Positions 3,347 to 48,952 of a DNA stretch of 64,000 bases are shown here, in pieces; position 1 is the stretch's first letter, and each line of letters begins with the position of its first letter. This DNA is from an uncultured Lachnospiraceae bacterium. GTDB lineage: Bacteria; Bacillota; Clostridia; Lachnospirales; Lachnospiraceae. The notes under the pieces were generated by a model. It saw only the letters and a list, made by a program, of their open reading frames with translations, ran no database searches and was not told the DNA's origin. The position numbers were made by a program, and so were the translations under genes. The DNA lies in assembly GCA_947586255.1 (NCBI GenBank), contig CANPXP010000004.1:40034-104033 (forward strand), read 5' to 3'.

Positions 3347-4189
3347 TTACGCCATCTGCATGACTTTGGCTTCCAGTTCCTTTAGTTCATCCATTGATAA
3401 AGATGGTACACATAACGCAATTTCATCTAATGATAACTTTCTCATTTTTATCATTCTTTCGGCGGTCTCTCTTGCCTCGCTGCTTTTAATGTCTTCTGCA
3501 TAGGCCTCCAAAACCTGCTCATCATCAAACAATGTCATCATAATATCCACAACCTCCTGCTCTTTATTCTCCAGATATTCCCTTAGCACATTCCGATCTT
3601 TGCAGATACGAATCGTCTCCATGACTGCTTCCCGTGTCTGCCCGTATTTCCTTCTCTGCTCATTATACACCTTGCAGAAAATAATATACTCCCCGATAAT
3701 GTTGCTCTCGTCCTCCTGATACAGCACCTTGACCTCTGCGTCTATGGCTATCTTCTCACCGCCGAAAAAATCTTTGGAGAGCGATATGGTATCCGGCGGA
3801 TTTTCCGGTTTTTCTCCCGTGAATATCACATACAGTTCCGGTTTCGGCATATTCACTTTCTTGCTGCCATACAGGTTTTGTTTGGTACGCTTAAAATAAT
3901 CATGGTAGGTCTGTATCAGATACAGAATCGCGCGGACAATGATGTTCAGCGTCCATGTTGACTGGCTTTCAACCAATATGACTAACCTGTCGCCAATGGA
4001 GAAGCCAAGATCATTGTAGTCCGCATCCACCAGTATATGCTTAATGGTAACATCTTTGATGTCGTCTTCCGTTACGCCGCTGTCCTCCGGATGGAGCGCC
4101 TGATACAGCCTGAGCAGATATTTTTTATCTTGAAAAAGATTCGTGAATACGCTATCCTTTATCTTTCGTTTTGGCGTAGTCTGCGCCAT
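3347..4189 (-). CDS. Rpn family recombination-promoting nuclease / putative transposase (PD-(D/E)XK)
   Basis: 280 aa; VFTNLFQDKKYLLRLYQALHPED, LVILVESQSTWTLNIIVRAILYL, C-terminal ETAERMIKM typical of the family. Confidence 0.85.
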   Translation of the reverse strand: MAQTTPKRKIKDSVFTNLFQDKKYLLRLYQALHPEDSGVTEDDIKDVTIKHILVDADYNDLGFSIGDRLVILVESQSTWTLNIIVRAILYLIQTYHDYFKRTKQNLYGSKKVNMPKPELYVIFTGEKPENPPDTISLSKDFFGGEKIAIDAEVKVLYQEDESNIIGEYIIFCKVYNEQRRKYGQTREAVMETIRICKDRNVLREYLENKEQEVVDIMMTLFDDEQVLEAYAEDIKSSEARETAERMIKMRKLSLDEIALCVPSLSMDELKELEAKVMQMA

Positions 4190-31231: not shown

Positions 31232-32089
31232 TCAGCGAGAATCTTTGGAGACCCGGAACAATACAAGATTTCCGATCACCGCAAAAGCGAGGATAAACAC
31301 CAAAAAGACTCCCCACACCAGCCAAAGGTGTCCCGCTGTGTGCGTGAACATACTCTCGGCTTCATGCTCGACACCCGGCACTTCCAGCTGAATTTTGAGC
31401 GGCAGTTCGTTGAGGTCCGATATACTTCCCAGCGCCTCCATGCCCCATCGGCTCAGCATCAGATAAGACAGCTTCTCCGCGCCGCCCTTCATGGTAAACA
31501 GAATCCCGGAGAAAATCAGCTGGACGATCAGGATATAGGGCGCCATCACATTGGCTGTCTCCGTCTTTTTTACCATACAGGAAATCATCAGGCCCATCAT
31601 ATCGGCCGCGTACATCAGAAGCAGAATGCTGATATAGTACTCCACAGTCACGTGCCCGAGCAGAATGCCGCTCTCCGGCAGCGCATTCCCGTAACATTGC
31701 TCCACACCCCAAAAAGCGGTGCACAGGATGAGGCTCTGGAACGCGCACAGGACCAGCTGGATCATGGCTCTGGACGCCACATAGCACTGCAGCCGCGCGC
31801 CGGACATATACTCGCGCTTCACGTTTGCCCGCTCTTTCACCACGATCTGAATCGAGTTGAACAGTCCGCCCCAAATGGCCGCGCTGACGATCACAAAGCA
31901 GGCCGACTTGGTCCCCTCGAAATGCACATACATATTTTCGCCGGCGATCCACACGGTAATTAACGCCGCAACCACCGGGAACAGCAGCATCACCAACAGG
32001 TTTTTGATGTCGCTGAGCAAAATGATCCTGTACTGTCTGCTGTAGATCCGCAGCTCTTTCCATGCCGAAATTCTTCTTGCCTCTTCCAT
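31232..32089 (-). CDS. ABC-2 type transporter permease
   Basis: 285 aa, multiple TM; ABCG-like KERANVKREYMSGARLQCYVASR; follows FHA-ABC ATPase. Confidence 0.8.
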   Translation of the reverse strand: MEEARRISAWKELRIYSRQYRIILLSDIKNLLVMLLFPVVAALITVWIAGENMYVHFEGTKSACFVIVSAAIWGGLFNSIQIVVKERANVKREYMSGARLQCYVASRAMIQLVLCAFQSLILCTAFWGVEQCYGNALPESGILLGHVTVEYYISILLLMYAADMMGLMISCMVKKTETANVMAPYILIVQLIFSGILFTMKGGAEKLSYLMLSRWGMEALGSISDLNELPLKIQLEVPGVEHEAESMFTHTAGHLWLVWGVFLVFILAFAVIGNLVLFRVSKDSR

Positions 32090-32091
32090 GC

Positions 32092-33570
32092 CTATCCTCT
32101 TATATACTTTTCGGGATTTCTCGTCAGAATCCCATACACATCCTTCATGGCGGCCCCGAAATATTCCGCCGCTTCCTGAGGCGTCCCCGTAAATGCGATT
32201 CGGCCGACGTCCTCATACTTGACCATCATGACGACACGGTCAAACAGTTCGATCTCCGAGACGTCATGAATGATGACAATAATTGTTTTCCTCTGATTGT
32301 GGGCGAGATTTTGCAGTATCGTAAACAGTTCTCTCTTCATTTCCGGGTCCAGCCCGGCATCCGGCTCATCCAGATAAAAAAGCGTCTTGTCGGCCGCAAG
32401 GTCGATCGCAATATTCACTCTCTGCATCTCCCCGCCGCTGATCTTATGAATCCTGGACCTGCGCACGGAGTCCAGCCTTAACAGCGAGATCGTCTCATCG
32501 ACTCTGCGCCTGATCTCCTGACTGCTCATGTCCGCCGGCAGCCTCGTCACCGCCGCCTCCCATATCTCTTCTTCCACCGTCAGCATCTCATGCAGGACAT
32601 TCTTCTGCGGCACATTACCGATCAGAAATTTCAGGCGCTCAAAATTGGCATAGAGATCTTCGCCGCAGAACGTGACCCTGCCTTTCACGCCCTGCAGTTC
32701 CATGCCGTTTAAACAGTTCATCAGCGTACTCTTGCCCGCTCCCGAACCGCCCAGCAGCGCCACCAGTTCTCCTTCGCAGATTTCCAGCTTCACATTGCGG
32801 ATCAGTTCTTTTGCGCCCGAACCGCTCTGATCCGGCACCGTCTTGGACTCTATGTCCGCGCTCAGTATGACTCTTTTTTGTTCCTCCGCCGTCTTCGGTT
32901 TCCTCGGGTTAAAGATCAGATTGTCTCCCGAATAGATGAAATTGATATCACACAGGGATATCCTGTCTTTCTCCTGCAGGAGTTCCTGTCCGGAAATTCT
33001 CCTGCCGTTCAGCCAGGTGCCGGCGGCGCTGTGGCAGTCGTCGAGATAATATCTGCCGTCCCGGCAGGTTATCCTGGCATGTACCGCGGATATGTACGGC
33101 CTTTGGATCGCTATTCTGCTCTGCGAGGGATCTCTTCCGATCACAACCTCGTCTTTGTCCTTCATGGAATAGAAGGTCCATTCCTCTCCCACACCGTCCG
33201 TCGTAAACAGCATCCACACGCCATTCGGCGATCTGAAGTCCGGGGTGTCGATCCGCAGCACGTCGCCGTTATCAAGTTTGATGGGTCTGGTATTCCCGTC
33301 CCCGTCCGGCTCTATTTTCCTTCCGTTATAATAGGTGCCGTTCCTGCTCTCCCCGTTGATCCAGAACCACTCTCCCGCGAGACATGCCAATTCTCCCTGG
33401 TGTCTCCCGGCAATCGGTGAGATCAGACTGATATCCGGTGCAGCCGTCGGCGTCCTGCGCCCCACGGTCCGCTTTGCCTCCGTATTTAATCTGCAGGTTC
33501 GTATCTGCCCCTGCTCGATCACGACCAGCGCAGCCTCCTGCACCTCTGCAACATACGATACCGTCTTCAT
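32092..33570 (-). CDS. Double-FHA ABC transporter ATP-binding protein (Rv1747-like)
   Basis: FHA motifs GESRNGTYYNGRKI and IGRDPSQSRIAIQRPYISAVHARITC...GTWLNGRRI; Walker A GGSGAGKST; signature ISGGEMQRVN; LDEPDAGLD. Confidence 0.9.
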   Translation of the reverse strand: MKTVSYVAEVQEAALVVIEQGQIRTCRLNTEAKRTVGRRTPTAAPDISLISPIAGRHQGELACLAGEWFWINGESRNGTYYNGRKIEPDGDGNTRPIKLDNGDVLRIDTPDFRSPNGVWMLFTTDGVGEEWTFYSMKDKDEVVIGRDPSQSRIAIQRPYISAVHARITCRDGRYYLDDCHSAAGTWLNGRRISGQELLQEKDRISLCDINFIYSGDNLIFNPRKPKTAEEQKRVILSADIESKTVPDQSGSGAKELIRNVKLEICEGELVALLGGSGAGKSTLMNCLNGMELQGVKGRVTFCGEDLYANFERLKFLIGNVPQKNVLHEMLTVEEEIWEAAVTRLPADMSSQEIRRRVDETISLLRLDSVRRSRIHKISGGEMQRVNIAIDLAADKTLFYLDEPDAGLDPEMKRELFTILQNLAHNQRKTIIVIIHDVSEIELFDRVVMMVKYEDVGRIAFTGTPQEAAEYFGAAMKDVYGILTRNPEKYIRG

Positions 33571-33609: not shown

Positions 33610-34893
33610 CTACTGGTATGCGTTATACAGATCCTTCACCTGGCCGGCATCCAGCGCCTGATCCCATATTTTTACATCGTCAAACGCTGCGGGATACAGC
33701 GCGTCCCAGCAGTTGATGCCCAGATATACATCCGGCTCATCTTCATCCATCATCCCGTCAGCGACATCGCCCTCGCCGACATTCACACCGGCCACATACA
33801 GCGTGCCGTGCACACTGTCAGTGCCGCTTCCCGCCTTGGTCCCGTCCACCGTAAAGGCGATGTGATACCAAACGCCCGTCTGCATGTAATCGACCCTAGC
33901 GCTCGGCCGGATCTCAAAACTGCTCCCCGCCTCGTTCGAGGCGGAACTTAGGATGGGCGCCATAGGCGTCGGATCTGTCTTCTGTCCCAGCCACAGTCTC
34001 CGCATCTTGCTCTGATCGAGCATATCACTTCCTATATGGATGAACGGCGCCCAGTCATACAGCTCATCCGCTTTCATCCAGAATGCCACCGTGTAGGAGG
34101 AGCCTATCCTGCCGACATCATCCAGCCGCAGGCCATAGGTCCCGTCCAGATATACCGCCTTGCCTTCCATGCCCGCCACATACTCCGGCTCCACATCCGG
34201 CGCAGGCTCCGGCATCTGCTCGACATCGTCTCTGACTACCACCAGCGCATTCCCCAGATCTCCGTCGAAGTCATAGGAATAAACAGACTTGGGCACGCTG
34301 GTCAAAATGGTATTCCCCACCACCTCATTGGTGGCGGAAACCACCTTGTTCTCTTCATCGGCCGCCGCATCTTCCGCAGGAGCCGACTCGCTTTCCGCCC
34401 CGGAAATATCCGCGTCCTCTCCCGCTTCTTCTCCTTCGCCGGCTTCATCATCCTGCACACCACCCTCCGGCGAAGCGCCGCCGTCAGTCCCGTCCTCTTC
34501 TTCCTCTTCCTTTTCGCTCTCCCGGGAGACGCTGCCTCCGCCTTCGCCGCCCTCGATCACCGTATAATAATAGACTCCCATTCCCACCGCAATTGCCAGC
34601 AGGAGGAACAACACAGCAAACAGCGTGACCATAAGGCGCCTGCTTTGGTTTTCCATCTTTTTGGTTTCCTGCATCCTCTGCTGCACATGAGCCTGCAGAT
34701 CGGTATTCTGCCTGTCCGCAGAGTTTTCGGGCCGCATCGCCGGCCGGGCGGCAGCACCCCCGTTCTTGTCGGCGCGTTCCGGTTTTTTATTCTTCTTCGC
34801 GCCGCCCTGAGGCTCTGTTCCGACCGGCGCGCCGCAGTTCGTACAGAACCTGGCGCCTTCCGGGATCTGTTTTCCACATTTGGTACAAAACAT
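33610..34893 (-). CDS. Zinc-ribbon / TM / acidic linker / LamG-like domain protein
   Basis: MFCTKCGKQIPEGARFCTNCGAP; YTVAFWMKADELYDWAPFIHIGSD...AFDDVKIWDQALDAGQVKDLY. Confidence 0.85.
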   Translation of the reverse strand: MFCTKCGKQIPEGARFCTNCGAPVGTEPQGGAKKNKKPERADKNGGAAARPAMRPENSADRQNTDLQAHVQQRMQETKKMENQSRRLMVTLFAVLFLLLAIAVGMGVYYYTVIEGGEGGGSVSRESEKEEEEEDGTDGGASPEGGVQDDEAGEGEEAGEDADISGAESESAPAEDAAADEENKVVSATNEVVGNTILTSVPKSVYSYDFDGDLGNALVVVRDDVEQMPEPAPDVEPEYVAGMEGKAVYLDGTYGLRLDDVGRIGSSYTVAFWMKADELYDWAPFIHIGSDMLDQSKMRRLWLGQKTDPTPMAPILSSASNEAGSSFEIRPSARVDYMQTGVWYHIAFTVDGTKAGSGTDSVHGTLYVAGVNVGEGDVADGMMDEDEPDVYLGINCWDALYPAAFDDVKIWDQALDAGQVKDLYNAYQ

Positions 34894-34912: not shown

Positions 34913-35812
34913 TTACTTCTCCGTCTCCTCAAAATATCGGTCTATACCGTCGGCTATGCCATACACGATTTTCCACTGGTACTCATCCGTCTGCATGGCC
35001 AGATCTTCCTTTTCATTGGTCATATAGCCCATCTCCACAATCGTGACCGGAACCCGGCACCAGTTGATGCCGCTCATGGTATCGGTCTCCCATACCCGTT
35101 CCCTGTTTGCCCCGGCAGACTCCGTCATCGCGTCCAGAATACATTCCGACAACAGGAAACACTCTTCATAGATATCCCCGCAATACGGATTGTCCTCTGT
35201 GGGGCATATCGTCATCATACCGTTGGCAGACGCATCTTCCGCGCCGTTGGCGTGTACTCTGATAAAAGCGTCCGCCTGCGCCTCATTGGCGATCTGCGCC
35301 CGTTCGCTGTTGCTTATATCCACATCATTTTTGGTTCTCACCATAATGACGGCGTAGCCCCTGTCCTTCAATTCCTGTTCCAGCTTCAGCGAGACTTCCA
35401 GATTCAGCTCGTACTCATACATGCCGCTGGCAATACCGCGCGTCCCCGCCGCGACCTTCGCTTTCAGTTCGTCTGAGCCGGGGGCCACGGGTTCCTTGTC
35501 AAAATTGCCCTGCTCCTGGTGTCCGGCGTCGATCACAATCAGCTTCCGCGGCTGTTCCTGCTCCGCTTTCTCCTCCGCCTCCTGCACATCCTCTGCCGCC
35601 ACGGTCTTCGCCTCTTGCGGCTCTTCCCGCGTCTCAGTTTCCCAAACGACATCCTCCGGCTCCTGCACATCCTCCACCGGAAGTTCCTCCTCTGCCTCTT
35701 CCACGGGCCTGACCGGCTCCGACAGATACGTCTCTTCTTTCGCGGCGCAGCCCGCCGTCACCCACACCGCAGCGGCAAGAGCCGCCGCCGCTTTGTACCA
35801 TTTCTTTTTCAT
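34913..35812 (-). CDS. N-acetylmuramoyl-L-alanine amidase (Amidase_3) lipoprotein
   Basis: Lipobox [42 protein letters not shown]. Confidence 0.9.
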
Positions 35813-35816
35813 AGCC

Positions 35817-37598
35817 TTAATACTGTACTTCCTCCTGTTCGATCGCCTGCCGGATCAGCTCCTCATTCTGCCTTCTGATCTCCGTATCCGGATAGCCCTG
35901 TACCTGCGCCAGCGCGTTTCGCAGAACCGCCTTGCTGAGAGCCAGATCGTAATCCGACAGCAGCGTATCGGCAGCATTCGGATAGATATCCTCGGACGCC
36001 ATAATCGCATTCTCATAATCCTTGATCAATTCCGTATTCTGTATCTCCAGCTTGCTCAGCGGACTCGGGCTGATGGCGTCGAAGTCATCCGGCGAGTATT
36101 TCTGCGGGATATCCAGATACCATGTCCTGGAGTAGAACCACTGGTTCAGCATACTGTCCTTGAACTGTCTGCCGTGTCTCGCGAATATCTCATTTCTGGC
36201 AATACGCAGCTGCGCCAGGCTCAGTCCGTCCAGATCGGCTTCCGTCACCTCTCTCTGAGAGGAAAAATCCAGCATATAATCCCAGTCCATGTAATCTCCG
36301 GCGAAGGCGCCGCTGATGTCCGACTGCGGTACATACTCCTTCGTGTAAGTGCCGGAGAACTCTGTCGAATCGGAAGTGGACAGAACAATATCCCTGAATT
36401 CCTGCTGATTGTCCGTATCCGGCGACGTATAGCGGAACGCATAGTAATCCTGCTGCTCTTCATAGATACTGAGATAGATATCTGTCAGGATGCTCTCCAG
36501 ATCGTTGACGTTGGCTGAGTAATAAGCCCCCGAGCACTCCTCCGCAAGCGACTGCAGCACATCTGCATCATACTCCTCGCCGATGCCGATGATAAAAAGA
36601 GGAATACCCGAATTCTGCGCCATGGTCACCACGTCTTCATAGGTGTAGCTGCTGCCGTTCTCCATGCCGTCCGTAAAACCGATGACGCACTTGGCCCCGG
36701 ACTCAAAATAGGTCTGATAAAGCCCTACATAGAGCGCATCGTACAGCGCCGTCGTGTTCCCCACGTCGATCGCGTCAATCGCAGCCGTCAGCAGTTCTTC
36801 CCTGTTGGTAAACTCCTGCTGCAGATACACGTAGTCGTCGAAGGAGATGACCTCCGCCCTGTCGCCGTGATCCAGATCCATTCTGGCGATCAGCGACTTT
36901 GCCGCATTCTTCGCCTGCTCCATCTTGTTGTAGTCGTCCATGCTGCCGCTGGCATCCAGGACCAGGTCAATACAGCTGTTGTCTTCATTTAAAACCCGAT
37001 AGACTTCCTCCAGTTCAATCTCCGACGCATTTCCCGCTGTGTCGATCTCCTGCACCGTAAAATCCCCGGCGTCCAGATCATCTACCGTATCATTGTTTTC
37101 GTCCACGACGCTGGCGTAGAAGGTGACTTCCGGAAATTTGGAATTATCCACCTGCCGGATATTCAGCGTGACCGGCGTGCGCTCCCCCTGATATACCTCC
37201 TCGGTCTCTTCCTCCTCTTTGGTCTCTTCGCCGCCTTCTTCGCCTTCTTTGTCTTCTTCGCCTTTCCCCGTGCCGGTGATATCGTCCCCCTCATCCGTGT
37301 CAGACTCGCCGGCTCTGCCCGCAAATTCATCGTTCTGGCGGTACACACCGAAGTACCAAGCGGCGCCGCCGCCCAGCCCGCACAGAAGAACCAATAAGAT
37401 GATAAGCAGGGTAAGCAGCCCTCTGCCCCGATGCGGTCTCTGCTGCGGTTCGCCCGCCGCAGGCAGATCGCCGCCAGACGCCGGCGCATCATTCTGAAAA
37501 CTTTCGTGCGCGCTGCCCTTTCCCGATACCGCCGCGCCGCATTTCGGACAAAACTTCGCACCGTCACGCAGCTCGGCGCCACATTTTACACAAAACAT
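35817..37598 (-). CDS. Zinc-ribbon / TM / vWA / YARHG domain protein
   Basis: [59 protein letters not shown]. Confidence 0.9.
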
Positions 37599-37756: not shown

Positions 37757-40105
37757 TTATCGGGTCATTCCCCCCCCATCCTGACCGCCGCGGATAAAGA
37801 ACGAGCTCACATCGCTGTCAATCGTGATCACATCACGGCCGTCATACAGCTGCAGATCTCCGCGCCTCTTGGCGCTGCTCCTGGTTCTGGTGTAATCCGT
37901 GAGGAAGACAGTCTTGTCACCGTCAAACATCGCATAGCGGGCGTTGGCGACATCATCAGCGATCTTCTCCGCCTTGCCGTTCCGGTACAGCTTCAGTGTC
38001 CCCTCATCGCCATCTTTACTGATATCCGTCAGATACAGCACCATGCCGTCTTCCCATCTGATCGAACCGTCGTACACATCGCTGTCGATCCTGCTTCCGC
38101 CGCAGTACAGATCCCCATCCTCATTCAGATAGTAAATACCATCCTCCTGCACCGTCTCAACAGATACGGCATCATCACAGATCCGCTCCGTTCCCTGATC
38201 CAGTGCGTTGTAATCCAGCGTATAAATCTCCATGGCGCCATCCGACCCGTACACCAGATACAGCGCATGCGGTTTCTCGCTCGCATAAATACTCGGCTCG
38301 TAGTAATCACCGATATCGGATTTGTCAATGCCGATGTCCTCAACCTCAACGGCATTCCCATCCTTCACGCAGAACAGGCTCATGCTTTCACGCAGGTTAT
38401 TCCGCAATGCCTGATACCAGGACACCTCCGAGTCGTTCTCCTCCAGCTCCATGAGTCTGGACAGCTTAATCTTATCCGCTTTTTCTATGTCATACAGCCA
38501 GTAGCACATCAGCGCCGTATGCTCCGTCTGCACCTGGGTGCTGCTCTCGATCGACGCCTCCACGATCATATTTGACTCTCCCTTTTTTGCATCATAGTAG
38601 TACAGCTCTTCCGCGCTGTCACTGATGATGTCGTTCTTTGCGTCTTCCCTGATCCGGTCTCTGTCCCGCTTCTCGTTATAGCTGTCCATCGCCTCATAGT
38701 ACGCGTCGCTTGTCTTGGTGCGGACACCGAAATAGGGATCGCTCACCTGTTCCCTGTAATCATCCTCGTCAGGCTCCTCCATATCCTGATCTTCCGGAAA
38801 ATCATCCTCGATGAGATCATAGAGAGACGTCTCCTCGGCGTCACCCTCTTTGGTGTAGTAGATCTTGGCGCTGCTGTCGATGTCATACACCATGACATCC
38901 ATCACATCTTTGGCGATCTGCTCCTCCTCTTTGTCCTGCATAATATAGAGATGATCATCCTTGCCGTAGACGTAAGTCTTTAAATCCGCCGAATGCGCAT
39001 AGAGACGCTCAATGTCGGATTCCAGTTCGTCCTTGTCTTCACCTATCCTGCATCCGCGGATATACAGATCGCTGCTGCCTTCCGCATTCGCGGCGCGCCA
39101 TGCCACGTTCTTTCCGTCCTCGGACACATACCATTCAGATACGTCGTTGTCGATCATCTCCTCCTCCCCGCCGTCGTATAGATATATTTTGCGGTTAACG
39201 CTGTCCTTAAAATAAATCAGCTTATCATCGTCGATGAGCTCATACGACAGCACATCGGAAGCGATCTCTTCTTCCTCCGCCTTTTTGCTGCCCAGCTTCT
39301 TCCTGTACAGGTCATAGGTCCCGTCCGACGCCAGCCTGTGCGGATAGAATACATATTTGCCGTCGGGAGAAATCGAAACGTTGGCGCTGTAAGACCCGCT
39401 CCCGTCAGCGTCGTCAAAGCACCGATCCTCGATCACACGCGCCTCCCATTTCCTGCCGGCCGCCGTATTGAGTTCGTCGTCCTTGAGATAGAACAGATAT
39501 TCCTCGCTGTCTCCCCCGAGACTGCCGAAGAGTTTCGGGAGCAGGATAATGCACGCCGCGATCACCGCCGCGGCTGCGGCCAGCGCGATTGCCAGCTTCG
39601 CTATCTTCTTTCCCTGTTTTCCTCTGTTCGGTCTGCCGCCCGACATGGCCTTGTCCGCGTTGCCGAAGAACATCCCGCAGGACTGGCAGAACAGATCGTT
39701 GATGCCGTTTTGGGCGCCGCAGTTCGGGCAGAACTTGATCTGCGGCGTCTCGGCCGCCGGCACCATCCTCGCCTCGTGCTCCTCCACTACGCCCGTGGAA
39801 GAAATCTCTATCGCCTCCACTCTGGAGCCGTCATCCGCGGAACTTCCCGTCTCTTCCGGCGCGGTTTCCTCTCCCGCCGCTTCGGAAATCTCCGACGTCT
39901 CTTCTTCTACGGTCGCCGTCTCTTCCTCCGCGGCTCGTTCCGGCACGGTCTGCTGTGACTGCTGCTCTTCATCCGTCACAAGCACGGTCCTGTACTCGTC
40001 GTCATCCTCCCTGGCAGTCGTGTTCATGCCGCTCATGGGAGCGCCGCAGTTCGGGCAGAACGCCGACCCTTCCCCTACCAGTGCACCACATTTTTCGCAA
40101 TACAT
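37757..40105 (-). CDS. Double zinc-ribbon / TM / propeller-like extracytoplasmic protein; 3' end contains G8 tract
   Basis: MYCEKCGALVGEGSAFCPNCGAP, KFCPNCGAQNGINDLFCQSCG, TM, then WD/DUF5050-like repeats. Confidence 0.8.
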   Translation of the reverse strand: MYCEKCGALVGEGSAFCPNCGAPMSGMNTTAREDDDEYRTVLVTDEEQQSQQTVPERAAEEETATVEEETSEISEAAGEETAPEETGSSADDGSRVEAIEISSTGVVEEHEARMVPAAETPQIKFCPNCGAQNGINDLFCQSCGMFFGNADKAMSGGRPNRGKQGKKIAKLAIALAAAAAVIAACIILLPKLFGSLGGDSEEYLFYLKDDELNTAAGRKWEARVIEDRCFDDADGSGSYSANVSISPDGKYVFYPHRLASDGTYDLYRKKLGSKKAEEEEIASDVLSYELIDDDKLIYFKDSVNRKIYLYDGGEEEMIDNDVSEWYVSEDGKNVAWRAANAEGSSDLYIRGCRIGEDKDELESDIERLYAHSADLKTYVYGKDDHLYIMQDKEEEQIAKDVMDVMVYDIDSSAKIYYTKEGDAEETSLYDLIEDDFPEDQDMEEPDEDDYREQVSDPYFGVRTKTSDAYYEAMDSYNEKRDRDRIREDAKNDIISDSAEELYYYDAKKGESNMIVEASIESSTQVQTEHTALMCYWLYDIEKADKIKLSRLMELEENDSEVSWYQALRNNLRESMSLFCVKDGNAVEVEDIGIDKSDIGDYYEPSIYASEKPHALYLVYGSDGAMEIYTLDYNALDQGTERICDDAVSVETVQEDGIYYLNEDGDLYCGGSRIDSDVYDGSIRWEDGMVLYLTDISKDGDEGTLKLYRNGKAEKIADDVANARYAMFDGDKTVFLTDYTRTRSSAKRRGDLQLYDGRDVITIDSDVSSFFIRGGQDGGGMTR
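37770..37777 (-). repeat. Homopolymeric G8 tract (C8 on + strand) at 3' end of CDS
   Basis: gtcattCCCCCCCCatcctg; G9 would open a 42-codon C-terminal tail. Confidence 0.85.
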
Positions 40106-40139: not shown

Positions 40140-41654
40140 TTACAGGCCCAGCGTATCTAAGATACCCTGAAAGAAATCTGCATATCTCTCCAGCGCCGTA
40201 TTGTTCTGTGAAGCGCCCGTGAGACGGAACGTATCGTCCGCGTAGACTTCAAATTCCAAAGCAAAAGGCGCGCCGTCCCGCTCTCCCTCATAGTACACAT
40301 ATTTCTGTGCGGCAGCGCTGTCCTCATAGGTATACCAGCTTCCCTCCGTCTCAGAGTACCTGTCGAGAATCTCTCCGACTGTATACCCCTGTGCCGCATT
40401 GTTTAACTTGCCGTCCCTGACGATAGCGATATCGCTCTGTGCAGACGCGTCCGCCGCACCCGCGCGCATCTGCCGATATGCCTGCGCGCCCGCATCGGCC
40501 TCATTCGTTTCGCCCGCCGCAGCGAATCCGTTCCGCACCCGCGCGCCGAAATCCCGAAGCGTATCACGCTTGACCCACGCCGCCGCCAGTGCAATCAACA
40601 GCACCAGCACAATGATCAGCCGGATCAGCAGTCTGTTAATACTCTGGTATCTCCTGCTCCTCTTTTCGGTTTTCAGATCCTGTCTGCTGATATAGATATC
40701 ATGGTACAGTTCCTCGACCGTCTGCTGCCTGTGTTCAGGCATAACTGACAGACCCTTTTGGATGGCCGTCCGGATATTGGCCGGCACCTTCTTGACCCGT
40801 GCGCCGACCGGCTCCAGGCGATCCTCCCTGATCCGCTCAATGGCTTCGGGGGGCACCTTGCCTGTCAACATCCGATACATCGTCGCACACAGGCTGTAGA
40901 CATCGGTCCATGTCCCCTGATTGCCGTTGGCGGAGTACTGCTCTATCGGCGCATAGCCGTGCTTGAGTACCACCGTCATGCTTTTATCGGACTGCAGGTC
41001 GTAATAGCGGGCGGAGCCAAAATCGATCAGCTTGACCTGATCGTCCGCCGAGACCATCAGATTGTCCGGGCTGATATCGCGGTGAAGCATCTTCTCCTTG
41101 TGGACAATCGCTAACGACTCCATCACCGGCTTCATCAGTTTCAAGGTCTCGTCCAGGGAAAGCGTACCGCCCTTTTGCCGCAGGTATTCCTTCAGCGTAA
41201 TGCCGTCGATATACTCCATCACAATGTAGGCTGTTTTGTTTTCATAAAAAAAATCCTTGACGGAGACAATACCCGGAAGATGAAAGAACTTAGACAATAC
41301 GGACGCTTCCCGCACGAAACGCTCCATACCGGCATGAAATTCAGCCTCAAGAGACTGCGTGAGCAGGTATAACTGCGTATCGTTGCGTTCTGTCGTGTCA
41401 CGTTTGATCAGATTGGCCGGATAAAATTCTTTGATCGCTATTTTAGTCTGCATGTTATTGTCCCATGCAAGATAGGTAATCCCGAAGCCGCCTTCTCCCA
41501 GCGTTTTACCCAGCGTATATTTTTGATTCAGTACCGTGCCCGGCTTCAAAATATGCGGTTCAACCGCAGCTGCGTGCACGGGATAGCCGCAATGCGGACA
41601 CACGGCCGGATTTCCCTCTAACGGCGCAAAACATCCATAACATACAGGCTGCAT
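40140..41654 (-). CDS. Membrane-anchored Ser/Thr protein kinase with N-terminal zinc ribbon
   Basis: GEGGFGITYLAWD glycine loop, IAIKEF, HRDISPDNLM, DFGSAR, TM at RLIIVLVLLIALAAAW. Confidence 0.93.
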   Translation of the reverse strand: MQPVCYGCFAPLEGNPAVCPHCGYPVHAAAVEPHILKPGTVLNQKYTLGKTLGEGGFGITYLAWDNNMQTKIAIKEFYPANLIKRDTTERNDTQLYLLTQSLEAEFHAGMERFVREASVLSKFFHLPGIVSVKDFFYENKTAYIVMEYIDGITLKEYLRQKGGTLSLDETLKLMKPVMESLAIVHKEKMLHRDISPDNLMVSADDQVKLIDFGSARYYDLQSDKSMTVVLKHGYAPIEQYSANGNQGTWTDVYSLCATMYRMLTGKVPPEAIERIREDRLEPVGARVKKVPANIRTAIQKGLSVMPEHRQQTVEELYHDIYISRQDLKTEKRSRRYQSINRLLIRLIIVLVLLIALAAAWVKRDTLRDFGARVRNGFAAAGETNEADAGAQAYRQMRAGAADASAQSDIAIVRDGKLNNAAQGYTVGEILDRYSETEGSWYTYEDSAAAQKYVYYEGERDGAPFALEFEVYADDTFRLTGASQNNTALERYADFFQGILDTLGL

Positions 41655-41669: not shown

Positions 41670-42110
41670 CTATTCTATTCTGGCGCCGCATTTAATACAG
41701 AATCGGCTCCCCGCCGCAAGCTCCGTCCCACACTTCGCACAGCGCACGGAAGCGGGCTGCCTGACCTGCGCCCCGCAGGAAGGACAGAACGCGCTCCCTC
41801 TGGGCACCTCGGTTCCGCACTGGTCACATATCACAATCCCCTTGATCTGGTACAGACCTTCCTTCAGATTGTCGAGTATACCGTCAACCAGATCGATCTG
41901 TTCCATCAGTTCATCAAAGTTTCCCTCTGTTCCGTTCTTATGCGCCTGGTAGTACGCCTCGCCAAGCTGCATGATATACTCGTCCCTGCGCGCCTTGTTC
42001 TTGGCTATCTCACCGGACAGCTTAGTCTGCTCCGATATGTCTTTCGCTTTCTGAGAAATAGAATTTCCCGCCTCTGTCACGCCGCTGCTGATCTTGTCAA
42101 TAAAAGACAT
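41670..42110 (-). CDS. Small protein with coiled coil and two C-terminal zinc ribbons
   Basis: MSFIDKISSGVTEAGNS ... CDQCGTEVPRGSAFCPSCGA...CAKCGTELAAGSRFCIKCGARIE. Confidence 0.88.
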   Translation of the reverse strand: MSFIDKISSGVTEAGNSISQKAKDISEQTKLSGEIAKNKARRDEYIMQLGEAYYQAHKNGTEGNFDELMEQIDLVDGILDNLKEGLYQIKGIVICDQCGTEVPRGSAFCPSCGAQVRQPASVRCAKCGTELAAGSRFCIKCGARIE

Positions 42111-42193
42111 AGTCCCACCTATCCGTGCGTCCAAACTGCACTCATCCGTCTGTAAGAGTCAACAAAATCTCCCTGTCAGACTGCTCCTCATAG

Positions 42194-42224
42194 ATTGTAC
42201 CCCCCCCCCGACTGTTTTTGTCAA
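42194..42224 (-). promoter_or_regulatory. Promoter with G10 homopolymer in spacer (candidate phase-variable)
   Basis: Minus strand TTGACA-AAAACAGTC-GGGGGGGGGG-TACAAT; 19-nt spacer. Confidence 0.75.
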
Positions 42225-42410
42225 TAGTATTGCATTTACGACATTTTCCGCTATACTATCTCTCAGGCAGTATCGCATCAGGGGGGGTGAAGGATACCGG
42301 CGCAGCGCCGGCCACTGGCACAGGAGAGAAAAATAGGAAAAGGGTGGGAGAAGAACGACAGAATGTCGAAAATTAGGATAGGATAGATTCGGGCCAGCGC
42401 GTCGATCCCG

Positions 42411-43238
42411 TCACAGGAACGCAATCCCTATCAGCGTCAGCCCGCAGGCTGGCGCGGTGGGCCCTGCCGCCCGTCTGTCCCTCGCCTCCAGAATATTTCT
42501 GATCTGCTCCGGCGGGATATGGCCACGCCCTGCTTCCATCAGCGTTCCCGCGATGATGCGCACCATATTATAGAGGAAACCGTTACCTGACACTTGTATC
42601 ACAATTTCTTGACCGATATGGTTAATTTTCTCGCTCTGAAAACCGGCCGATCCGACGCCGTCTGCGGGCGTCTCCGGCGCGCCTGCCTCGCTGCCCGAAT
42701 AACCGTCCGCAAACACCCGGATCGAATCGATCCGGCGCACGGTCGTCTCCGCCTGGCTGTCCGCACTGCAGAAACTCTTAAAGTCATGTTCGCCCGTCAG
42801 ATACGCAGCCGCCCGCCGCATCAGGGCGACATCCATCGGCACGTAGGTGTAGTGGGCGTACAGCCTCTTGGTCGGCAGCGGAAAGGGCGCGCAGTAGATG
42901 CGGTACTCATAGGTCTTGCGGCTCGCGCAGTGCCGCGGGTGAAAATCCGGGGCCACCTCCTCCGACTTCTGAATACGGATATCCTCCGGAAGGCTCCGGT
43001 TCAGCGCGTAGGCGAGCTTGTCCGCCGGGATCCGGCTTTCCGTGTCGAAGACCGCCACGTTGCCCAGCGCGTGGACGCCCGCGTCGGTGCGGCTCGCGCC
43101 GGTCACCTCGATTTTTTCTCCCAAAAGCTCAGAAAGGCATCTGTTCAGGATGCCCTCTATCGTCTCTCCGTTCGGTTGTACCTGCCACCCGTGATAGCGC
43201 GTGCCGTCATAGGCGACCGTCAGCATAACTCTTTTCAT
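42411..43238 (-). CDS. truA: tRNA pseudouridine(38-40) synthase
   Basis: LTVAYDGTRYHGWQVQPNGETIEG; GASRTDAGVHALGNVAVFDT. Confidence 0.97.
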   Translation of the reverse strand: MKRVMLTVAYDGTRYHGWQVQPNGETIEGILNRCLSELLGEKIEVTGASRTDAGVHALGNVAVFDTESRIPADKLAYALNRSLPEDIRIQKSEEVAPDFHPRHCASRKTYEYRIYCAPFPLPTKRLYAHYTYVPMDVALMRRAAAYLTGEHDFKSFCSADSQAETTVRRIDSIRVFADGYSGSEAGAPETPADGVGSAGFQSEKINHIGQEIVIQVSGNGFLYNMVRIIAGTLMEAGRGHIPPEQIRNILEARDRRAAGPTAPACGLTLIGIAFL

Positions 43239-47133: not shown

Positions 47134-48834
47134 TCACATTTCAAACATCGCCATGCTGTCATCCAATCTGTTGGAGATATCCTTGAGGTCCACCGCGTTG
47201 GTCGCGATCTCGCCCACAATGCTGCTGATCTCCGTCACGGAAGCCGACGTCTCCTGCGAGCTGGCGGCGTTCTCCTGCGCGATGGCCGACAGGTTCTGCA
47301 CCGTGTCTACCACGCTGCTGCGCGCCTCGTTGATCTTGTTGGTCTTCTCTACCACTTCCTCGATGCCTGCCAGAGATTCCTCCACATCCTGCAGAAGGTT
47401 CATAACCTGCGTGTTCGTGTTGGTGACATTCTCGCTCTGCTGCTCCATGATCTCCTTCACTTCATTCATGGTCGCAACCGACTTGTCGGAATCCTCAATC
47501 AGCGAGAGGATAATCATTTCGATCTGCTTCGCGGATTCATTTGACTGCTCGGCCAGCTTCTGGATCTGTGCGGCGACAACCGCAAAGCCTCTGCCCTGCT
47601 CGCCCGCGCGCGCCGCCTCGATGGACGCGTTCAGCGACAGCAGGTTCGTCTCCTCAGCGATGTTGGTGATGAGCGCCGTCGCCTCCTTGATCTTCTGTGC
47701 GGACTCATTGGTCACATTCGTCTGCTCGTAGATGATGTCGATGGACTCGCTCGTCTTCGCGTTGGTGGACTGCAGCTCACGCAGCGCCTGAATCGCCGCC
47801 TCGCCCCGCTCCTTCATGGACCTGGCGCTCTCGCTCAGGCTGCCCAGCTCATCCACCGTCTCCTCGATCATATTGCCCATCATAATGATATTCTCAGTGG
47901 CGTCCTGCGTCTCCTCCGCCTGGCTGCCCGCGCCGATGGCGATCTCGCCGACAGCCTTCTCCATCTGCTCGACGTGATTGCTCGTGTCGCTGGTCTTCTC
48001 GCTCAGCTGCTCGGAAGCGTTCAGCAGCGTGTTGCTGTCGTTCTTAATGGAGGAGATGATATCTGACAGATTACTCTTCAGTTTATTGATCGCACGGCTG
48101 ATATCGCCGATCTCGTCCTTGCTCTTAAGCTGCGCTTCGCTCAGACTGACATTCAGCTTACCCTCGGAGAGCTGTGACAGCGCGTTGACACCCTCCGAGA
48201 TACTGCGTACCATCTTGTTGACGATCAGGAAAATCAGCACCACGCACACAAGCGCCACAGCTACGATGATTCCCACAATCAGATAGGTGATGCTCCTGAT
48301 CTGGTTCTTAGCGTCCGCCTGCGACATACCGGCGAACACCATACCTACGATCTCTCCTGTCGTCTCGTCGGTGAGCGGTACATAGTAGCCGAAATAATCC
48401 TGCCCCACCACGACGACGTCCGTGGCGAAATAGTCCTGCCCGCCCTTCAGCACGGTGTTGATCACGGCCTCGCCGGCCTGTGTCCGCAGCACTCTGTCGC
48501 CGTTCTCGTCGAGCACGGACGTCATGTAGCGCGTGTCGCCGTAAAAGACCGTGATATCCGTATTGGCGCTCTTGCGCAGCTCGTCCGCCAGCCTAGTATG
48601 CTGGGTAATGTTGTAATCGCCTTTATACAGTTCATCGTTCTCGTCCAGATAAAAGGCGTCGTCGTTGACCTCCTCCAGAGAATCCAAAACCGATATGGCC
48701 GCGCTTCGCAGCCCGTTCTCAATCGCCGACGTGAGCACCGCATTGATTCTCTTGTTGCTAACCCACAGCATGACCACGCCCAACAGCACAATCGGCATGA
48801 TCGAAATACACAATATTTTCTGTTTCAGTTTCAT
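47134..48834 (-). CDS. Methyl-accepting chemotaxis protein (Cache-HAMP-MCP)
   Basis: Two TMs, [34 protein letters not shown]. Confidence 0.95.
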
Positions 48835-48944: not shown

Positions 48945-48952
48945 CCCCCCCC
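48945..48952. repeat. Homopolymeric C8/G8 tract upstream of MCP promoter
   Basis: ggcgCCCCCCCCttgtc. Confidence 0.8.

Follow-up and report, generated by a model that had tools for sequence, protein, structure and literature searches.

Does a run of ten guanines in the spacer of a bacterial promoter allow transcription of the genes behind it to be reset by replication slippage? The question is raised by a locus in an uncultured Lachnospiraceae bacterium, found within a 64,000-nt stretch of DNA (referred to here as the window) of a draft genome (G000; 2.78 Mb in 88 contigs, ~85% completeness). The initial annotation proposed a candidate phase-variable promoter for a kinase/FHA operon and described slippage of poly-G spacers as an established mechanism, which it is: known cases include porA of Neisseria meningitidis, where poly-G lies between the -35 and -10 elements (PMC3639595), and tp0126 of Treponema pallidum (PMC7864442).

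Read directly from the minus strand of the window, positions 42224 to 42194 give TTGACA-AAAACAGTC-G10-TACAAT, exactly as annotated. The -35 hexamer TTGACA (42219..42224) is a perfect consensus and the -10 hexamer TACAAT (42194..42199) matches at five of six positions, so that both are near consensus as claimed. Between them lie the nine non-G nucleotides AAAACAGTC (42210-42218) and the G10 tract (42200..42209), which adjoins the -10 directly, giving the claimed 19-nt spacer (42200..42218), a total common to most poly-G promoters of the genus. A homopolymer of at least eight thus separates near-consensus -35 and -10 elements, and 83 nt, close to the annotated ~80, separate TACAAT from the start codon of operon gene 1 (ATG at 42110). 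The tract is the sole G/C run of at least nine in the window (two other runs reach at least eight, both of them G8) and the sole G10 in the genome, where the TTGACAAAAACAGTCG stretch occurs only once. The opposite strand carries one of the genome's two G7 runs (42281-42287; read as C7 on the operon strand), at a distance of 72 bp from the G10.

Behind this promoter, eight minus-strand genes run from 42110 down to 31232, and their common strand and close spacing suggest that they are co-transcribed. The first encodes a double zinc-ribbon protein (41670..42110; 146 aa from ATG 42110) and the second a Ser/Thr protein kinase (40140..41654) that carries a zinc-ribbon-like motif at its N-terminus as well as a hydrophobic segment. 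These are followed by a 782-aa zinc-ribbon membrane protein (gene 3; 37757..40105), a protein combining zinc-ribbon, VWA and YARHG domains (gene 4; 35817..37598), a lipoprotein-like N-acetylmuramoyl-L-alanine amidase of the Amidase_3 type (gene 5; 34913..35812), a zinc-ribbon and LamG-like protein (gene 6; 33610..34893), a protein with two FHA domains and an ABC ATPase (gene 7; 32092..33570), and, finally, an ABC-2 type permease (gene 8; 31232..32089). With both a Ser/Thr kinase and an FHA-ABC gene among the eight, the kinase/FHA label is apt. A second tract is found within the operon itself, a G8 (37770..37777, minus strand) shortly before the stop of gene 3, where a neighbouring frame is open for a further 126 nt, making this tract a candidate C-terminal tail switch. 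A signalling operon is a less classic cargo of phase variation than adhesins or glycosyltransferases are, and this counts against switching.

It is quite improbable that the promoter is a minor one, with most transcription of the operon coming from truA read-through or from a start elsewhere. The truA gene (tRNA pseudouridine synthase; 42411..43238, minus strand) is a possible source of read-through, as it lies on the same strand and ends 186 nt before the -35, with a weak terminator-like hairpin as the sole such feature between them. Against this stand the perfect -35 and the 5/6 -10 of the poly-G promoter, an architecture that fits a recurrent class in the genus, and a search of 42050-42450 for a second sigma-70-like site, with 16-18 nt between the hexamers, which returned none. 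The notion that the poly-G promoter has been conserved together with its operon was rejected, since it is missing from both other species in which the Zn-ribbon/kinase pair has orthologues, G065 and G077, and this absence counts against switching. In G065, the orthologous genes are preceded by TTGACA-17-TATAAT with no poly-G, and in G077 neither a poly-G promoter nor a TTGACA-17-TATAAT-type site was found before them.

Several other loci touch on the same themes. In the window, a gene for a methyl-accepting chemotaxis protein (47134-48834, minus strand) is preceded at ~110 nt by a G8 (48945-48952) that has no clear -35/-10 pair around it. Elsewhere in the source genome, a promoter-like site, TTGACA-TA-G9 (G000:C7:88943; L113), precedes a zinc-ribbon-like ORF of 30 aa and a gene for an Amidase_3/SH3 lipoprotein, a set that recalls parts of the window operon, and a G9 is found in the leader of a gene 1 paralogue (C21:28545).

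Pattern searches of the whole genome for G runs of exact length returned two G7, eight G8, 39 G9 and one G10, and a single G11 occurs at the end of a contig. G9 dominates the 49 runs that are eight or longer, and counts climb with length up to nine. This trend, where chance predicts a geometric fall, argues that the G10 tract is not a chance homopolymer. Many tracts of the same repeat are thus over-represented in or before the genes of this genome, as in a phasome. The evidence is from one draft assembly of ~85% completeness, and homopolymers are prone to error; nevertheless, an origin in chance or in a sequencing or assembly artefact is very remote, given that the run-length counts run opposite to chance, that tracts occur at orthologous sites in many independent assemblies, and that ORFs are open at exactly the assembled length.

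Those open frames became apparent when ORFs with an RBS-like upstream start were traced past their tracts at the present length and with one base more or less. Eighteen ORFs are open through the tract at its present length, mostly meeting an early stop at n-1 or n+1. For example, the ORF at C2:73096 is open for 1065 nt at present and for little at the neighbouring lengths (6/1065/54 nt). Six further ORFs, three of them with G8, are apparently closed solely by tract length. These include C3:97932 (G8; 60 nt at present vs 1404 nt) and a family-2 glycosyltransferase at C40:26780 (G8; 9 vs 375), together with operon gene 3 (G8), C5:92267, C15:562 and C27:33399. Frames that open or close according to tract length are the signature of coding contingency loci. 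Among the products of ORFs with a tract are CotH, DUF6056 and DUF6020 proteins, methyltransferases, WbqC, radical SAM and AraC proteins, a solute-binding lipoprotein and a histidine kinase.

Three arrangements among the tract-bearing genes deserve separate mention. At G000:C10:25366-27678 (L067), five G9 tracts lie within 2.3 kb, four of them in paralogous Nif11-type leader peptides and exactly at the double-glycine motif (DDALEAVTGGG); since more than one frame is open after the tract in three of the four leaders, slippage could alter the core peptide. A lipoprotein gene at G000:C35 (tracts at 4106 and 4280; L077 and L112) has the promoter TTGACA-A-G9-TAGAGCGTA-TATAAT and a second G9 right behind the lipobox cysteine, amounting to double control, and its promoter tract is found again in other species of the genus. 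Finally, DUF6056 membrane proteins carry a coding G9 at G000:C2:73096 and a poly-G promoter at G005:C58:37761, so that one family is under two kinds of tract control in two species.

Promoters of the window type recur well beyond this genome. Among 78 genomes of the same genus, the pattern TTGAC-(0-12)-G8-(0-12)-TATAAT matched 27 sites in 21 genomes, against none for the reversed pattern used as a control. The window promoter had no influence on this result, as its -10, TACAAT, excludes it from the matches. Likewise, in a sample of 397 Lachnospiraceae genomes, a tighter pattern found 14 sites in 13 genomes, again with none for the reversed control and with one site shared with the genus list. 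A G tract in a promoter spacer is therefore commoner than chance at both levels (27 vs 0; 14 vs 0). Downstream genes, where identifiable, mostly encode lipoproteins, large signal-peptide proteins, an LRR/DUF285 (BspA-like) surface protein, T2SSF and TadZ pilus proteins, and DUF6056; the family of some others was not recognised. This is typical phase-variable cargo. Thus, the annotated candidacy stands to the extent that the promoter belongs to a recurrent genus and family class, for which the phase-variable reading is well supported by the tract excess, the frame effects, the recurrent promoters and their downstream cargo.

The part of the original proposal that fares less well is its target, namely that losing two G would bring the spacer to an optimal 17 nt; this is doubtful, because poly-G promoters across the genus cluster at 19. 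Ordinary TTGACA/TATAAT pairs in the source genome peak at 17 nt (16/42), with one at 19, whereas the genus poly-G promoters have a 19-nt spacer at 20 of 28 sites and 17 nt is almost absent. When orthologous sets were collapsed by eye into 17 independent families, ten had 19 nt, as compared to one of the 31 ordinary pairs with 15-20 nt spacers (Fisher, p=2.7e-5); for 17 nt, the same comparison gave p=0.0015. The total of 19 is reached even as the tract shifts within the spacer, through arrangements of 10+9+0, 9+10+0, 1+9+9, 3+9+7, 4+9+6, 5+9+5 and 7+9+3. The second of these is shared by the window promoter, G005, G044 and G076. The remaining genus poly-G spacers measure 14, 16, 17, 18, 20 or 21 nt, with a smaller group at 16, and most spacers in the wider family sample fall at 18-20.

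This preference can be read in two ways. A spacer that contains a long G tract may have 19 nt as its operating length; alternatively, the promoters may sit on the slope either side of 17, where a single base has the greatest effect. The 19 nt now found at the window promoter may accordingly be a length at which it functions or lie on that slope, and need not simply represent a mis-spaced OFF state. With G9, the commonest tract in the source genome, its spacer would be 18 nt. As the sole G10 in a genome that prefers G9, the promoter may be in a switched state.

The same regularity is the main argument for static architecture, in which G9-G10 in a 19-nt spacer would be a fixed structural element, kept for strength and not for switching; speculatively, A-form-like DNA might shorten the path between the hexamers, although the literature searched held no paper in support of this explanation for the 19-nt rule. 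The constancy of the total wherever the tract sits and its enrichment over ordinary promoters are what such an element would produce, as is the sharing of tract length between orthologues. With one genome compared per species, orthologous promoters have equal tract lengths: G9 is kept before the same ~950-aa secreted protein in four species and before a short DUF4854-type lipoprotein in seven. Retention of the tract at these sites favours the contingency-promoter reading, and its equal length is the main caution against switching. Static architecture is nonetheless unlikely, because such tracts are also abundant inside coding frames, to which promoter spacing is irrelevant, because spacers of 14, 16, 17, 18, 20 and 21 nt occur too, and because the optimum for T. 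pallidum tp0126 with poly-G was 17 (PMC7864442). Nor does a dominant length exclude switching, as the T. pallidum tprL tract is mostly G9 and yet ranges over 7-11 in the population (PMC7864442).

A dominant length is also a property of whole genomes. Each poly-G-rich genome among G001-G077 has one preferred length, which differs by lineage. G9 dominates in G066, G068-G071, G073, G074 and G000, where it accounts for 77-90% of G8-G10 runs, G10 in G004, G039, G044 and G045, and G8 in G033, G036 and G037. A single preferred length resembles an equilibrium of slippage particular to each lineage. That lost mismatch repair drives the slippage is unsupported as to MutS, which is present in 77 of the 78 genus genomes, including the source genome. 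Mononucleotide slippage would thus not be raised through MutS loss, and this counts against the contingency-promoter reading.

Taken together, the window locus is probably a poly-G contingency promoter, in which a slippage-prone tract sets the -35/-10 spacing and so resets transcription of the kinase/FHA operon. As envisaged from the sequence, the -35/-10 distance of a SigA-type promoter would be set by a G tract that tends to slip during replication, and rare changes of +1 or -1 would reset transcription of the entire envelope-signalling operon. A graded change in activity would be expected as the spacer goes from 18 nt (G9) to 19 or 20 nt (G10, G11). We infer both the slippage of the tract in the population and the effect of its length on transcription. 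The promoter would be one member of a genome- and genus-wide poly-G set acting as a phase-variation repertoire, the other members being further promoter tracts, tracts near ribosome-binding sites and tracts inside reading frames.

The mechanism has documented precedents, from which the present case differs. Like the window promoter, porA has poly-G in a sigma-70 spacer with 9-11 G, and its expression level is set by tract length; however, it is one porin gene of a Gram-negative pathogen, while the present tract precedes a signalling operon in a commensal of the Lachnospiraceae and sits in a spacer of 19 nt, against a cited optimum of 17 (PMC7864442). In T. pallidum, tp0126 (OmpW-like) and tprL have poly-G in or by the promoter, and tract length alters reporter activity (PMC7864442), but the optimum reported for tp0126 is 17 nt where the mode here is 19, and the tprL tract overlaps the -10 region. 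Coding poly-G contingency loci of Campylobacter and Helicobacter, e.g., H. canadensis (PMC2823697), likewise involve many genes with a homopolymeric tract and frame ON/OFF or C-terminal switching. They belong to another phylum, however, and the present genomes have one sharply dominant tract length each, with promoters as a marked subset. Promoter phase variation is also known in gut bacteria through invertible promoters, such as pdcB/pdcC of C. difficile and those of Bacteroidales (reviewed in PMC11868660), but there it proceeds by recombinase inversion, whereas tract-length slippage makes inversion unnecessary. The literature searched contained no report of SSR phase variation in Lachnospiraceae or Clostridia, and within that literature the multi-locus use of this known mechanism in a commensal Lachnospiraceae genus appears to be new.

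The genus-wide poly-G phasome is a more interesting object than the single promoter that is one of its members. We would put at about even the chance that such a phasome exists in full, with tens of tracts in many genomes, a preferred G8, G9 or G10 per lineage, 19-nt promoters, and slippage that tunes surface and envelope-signalling genes, including the kinase/FHA operon. Slippage-based gene switching is known mainly from pathogens, and this genus is an apparent counter-example among gut commensals: some 50 length-sensitive G runs in one genome, and hundreds in the genus, suggest that gut commensals use it as well. The 19-nt rule and the lineage-specific tract length are concrete regularities open to testing. 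If the reading is true, these bacteria would express surface proteins, pili and an envelope kinase pathway in a partly stochastic manner that no analysis of gene content could reveal.
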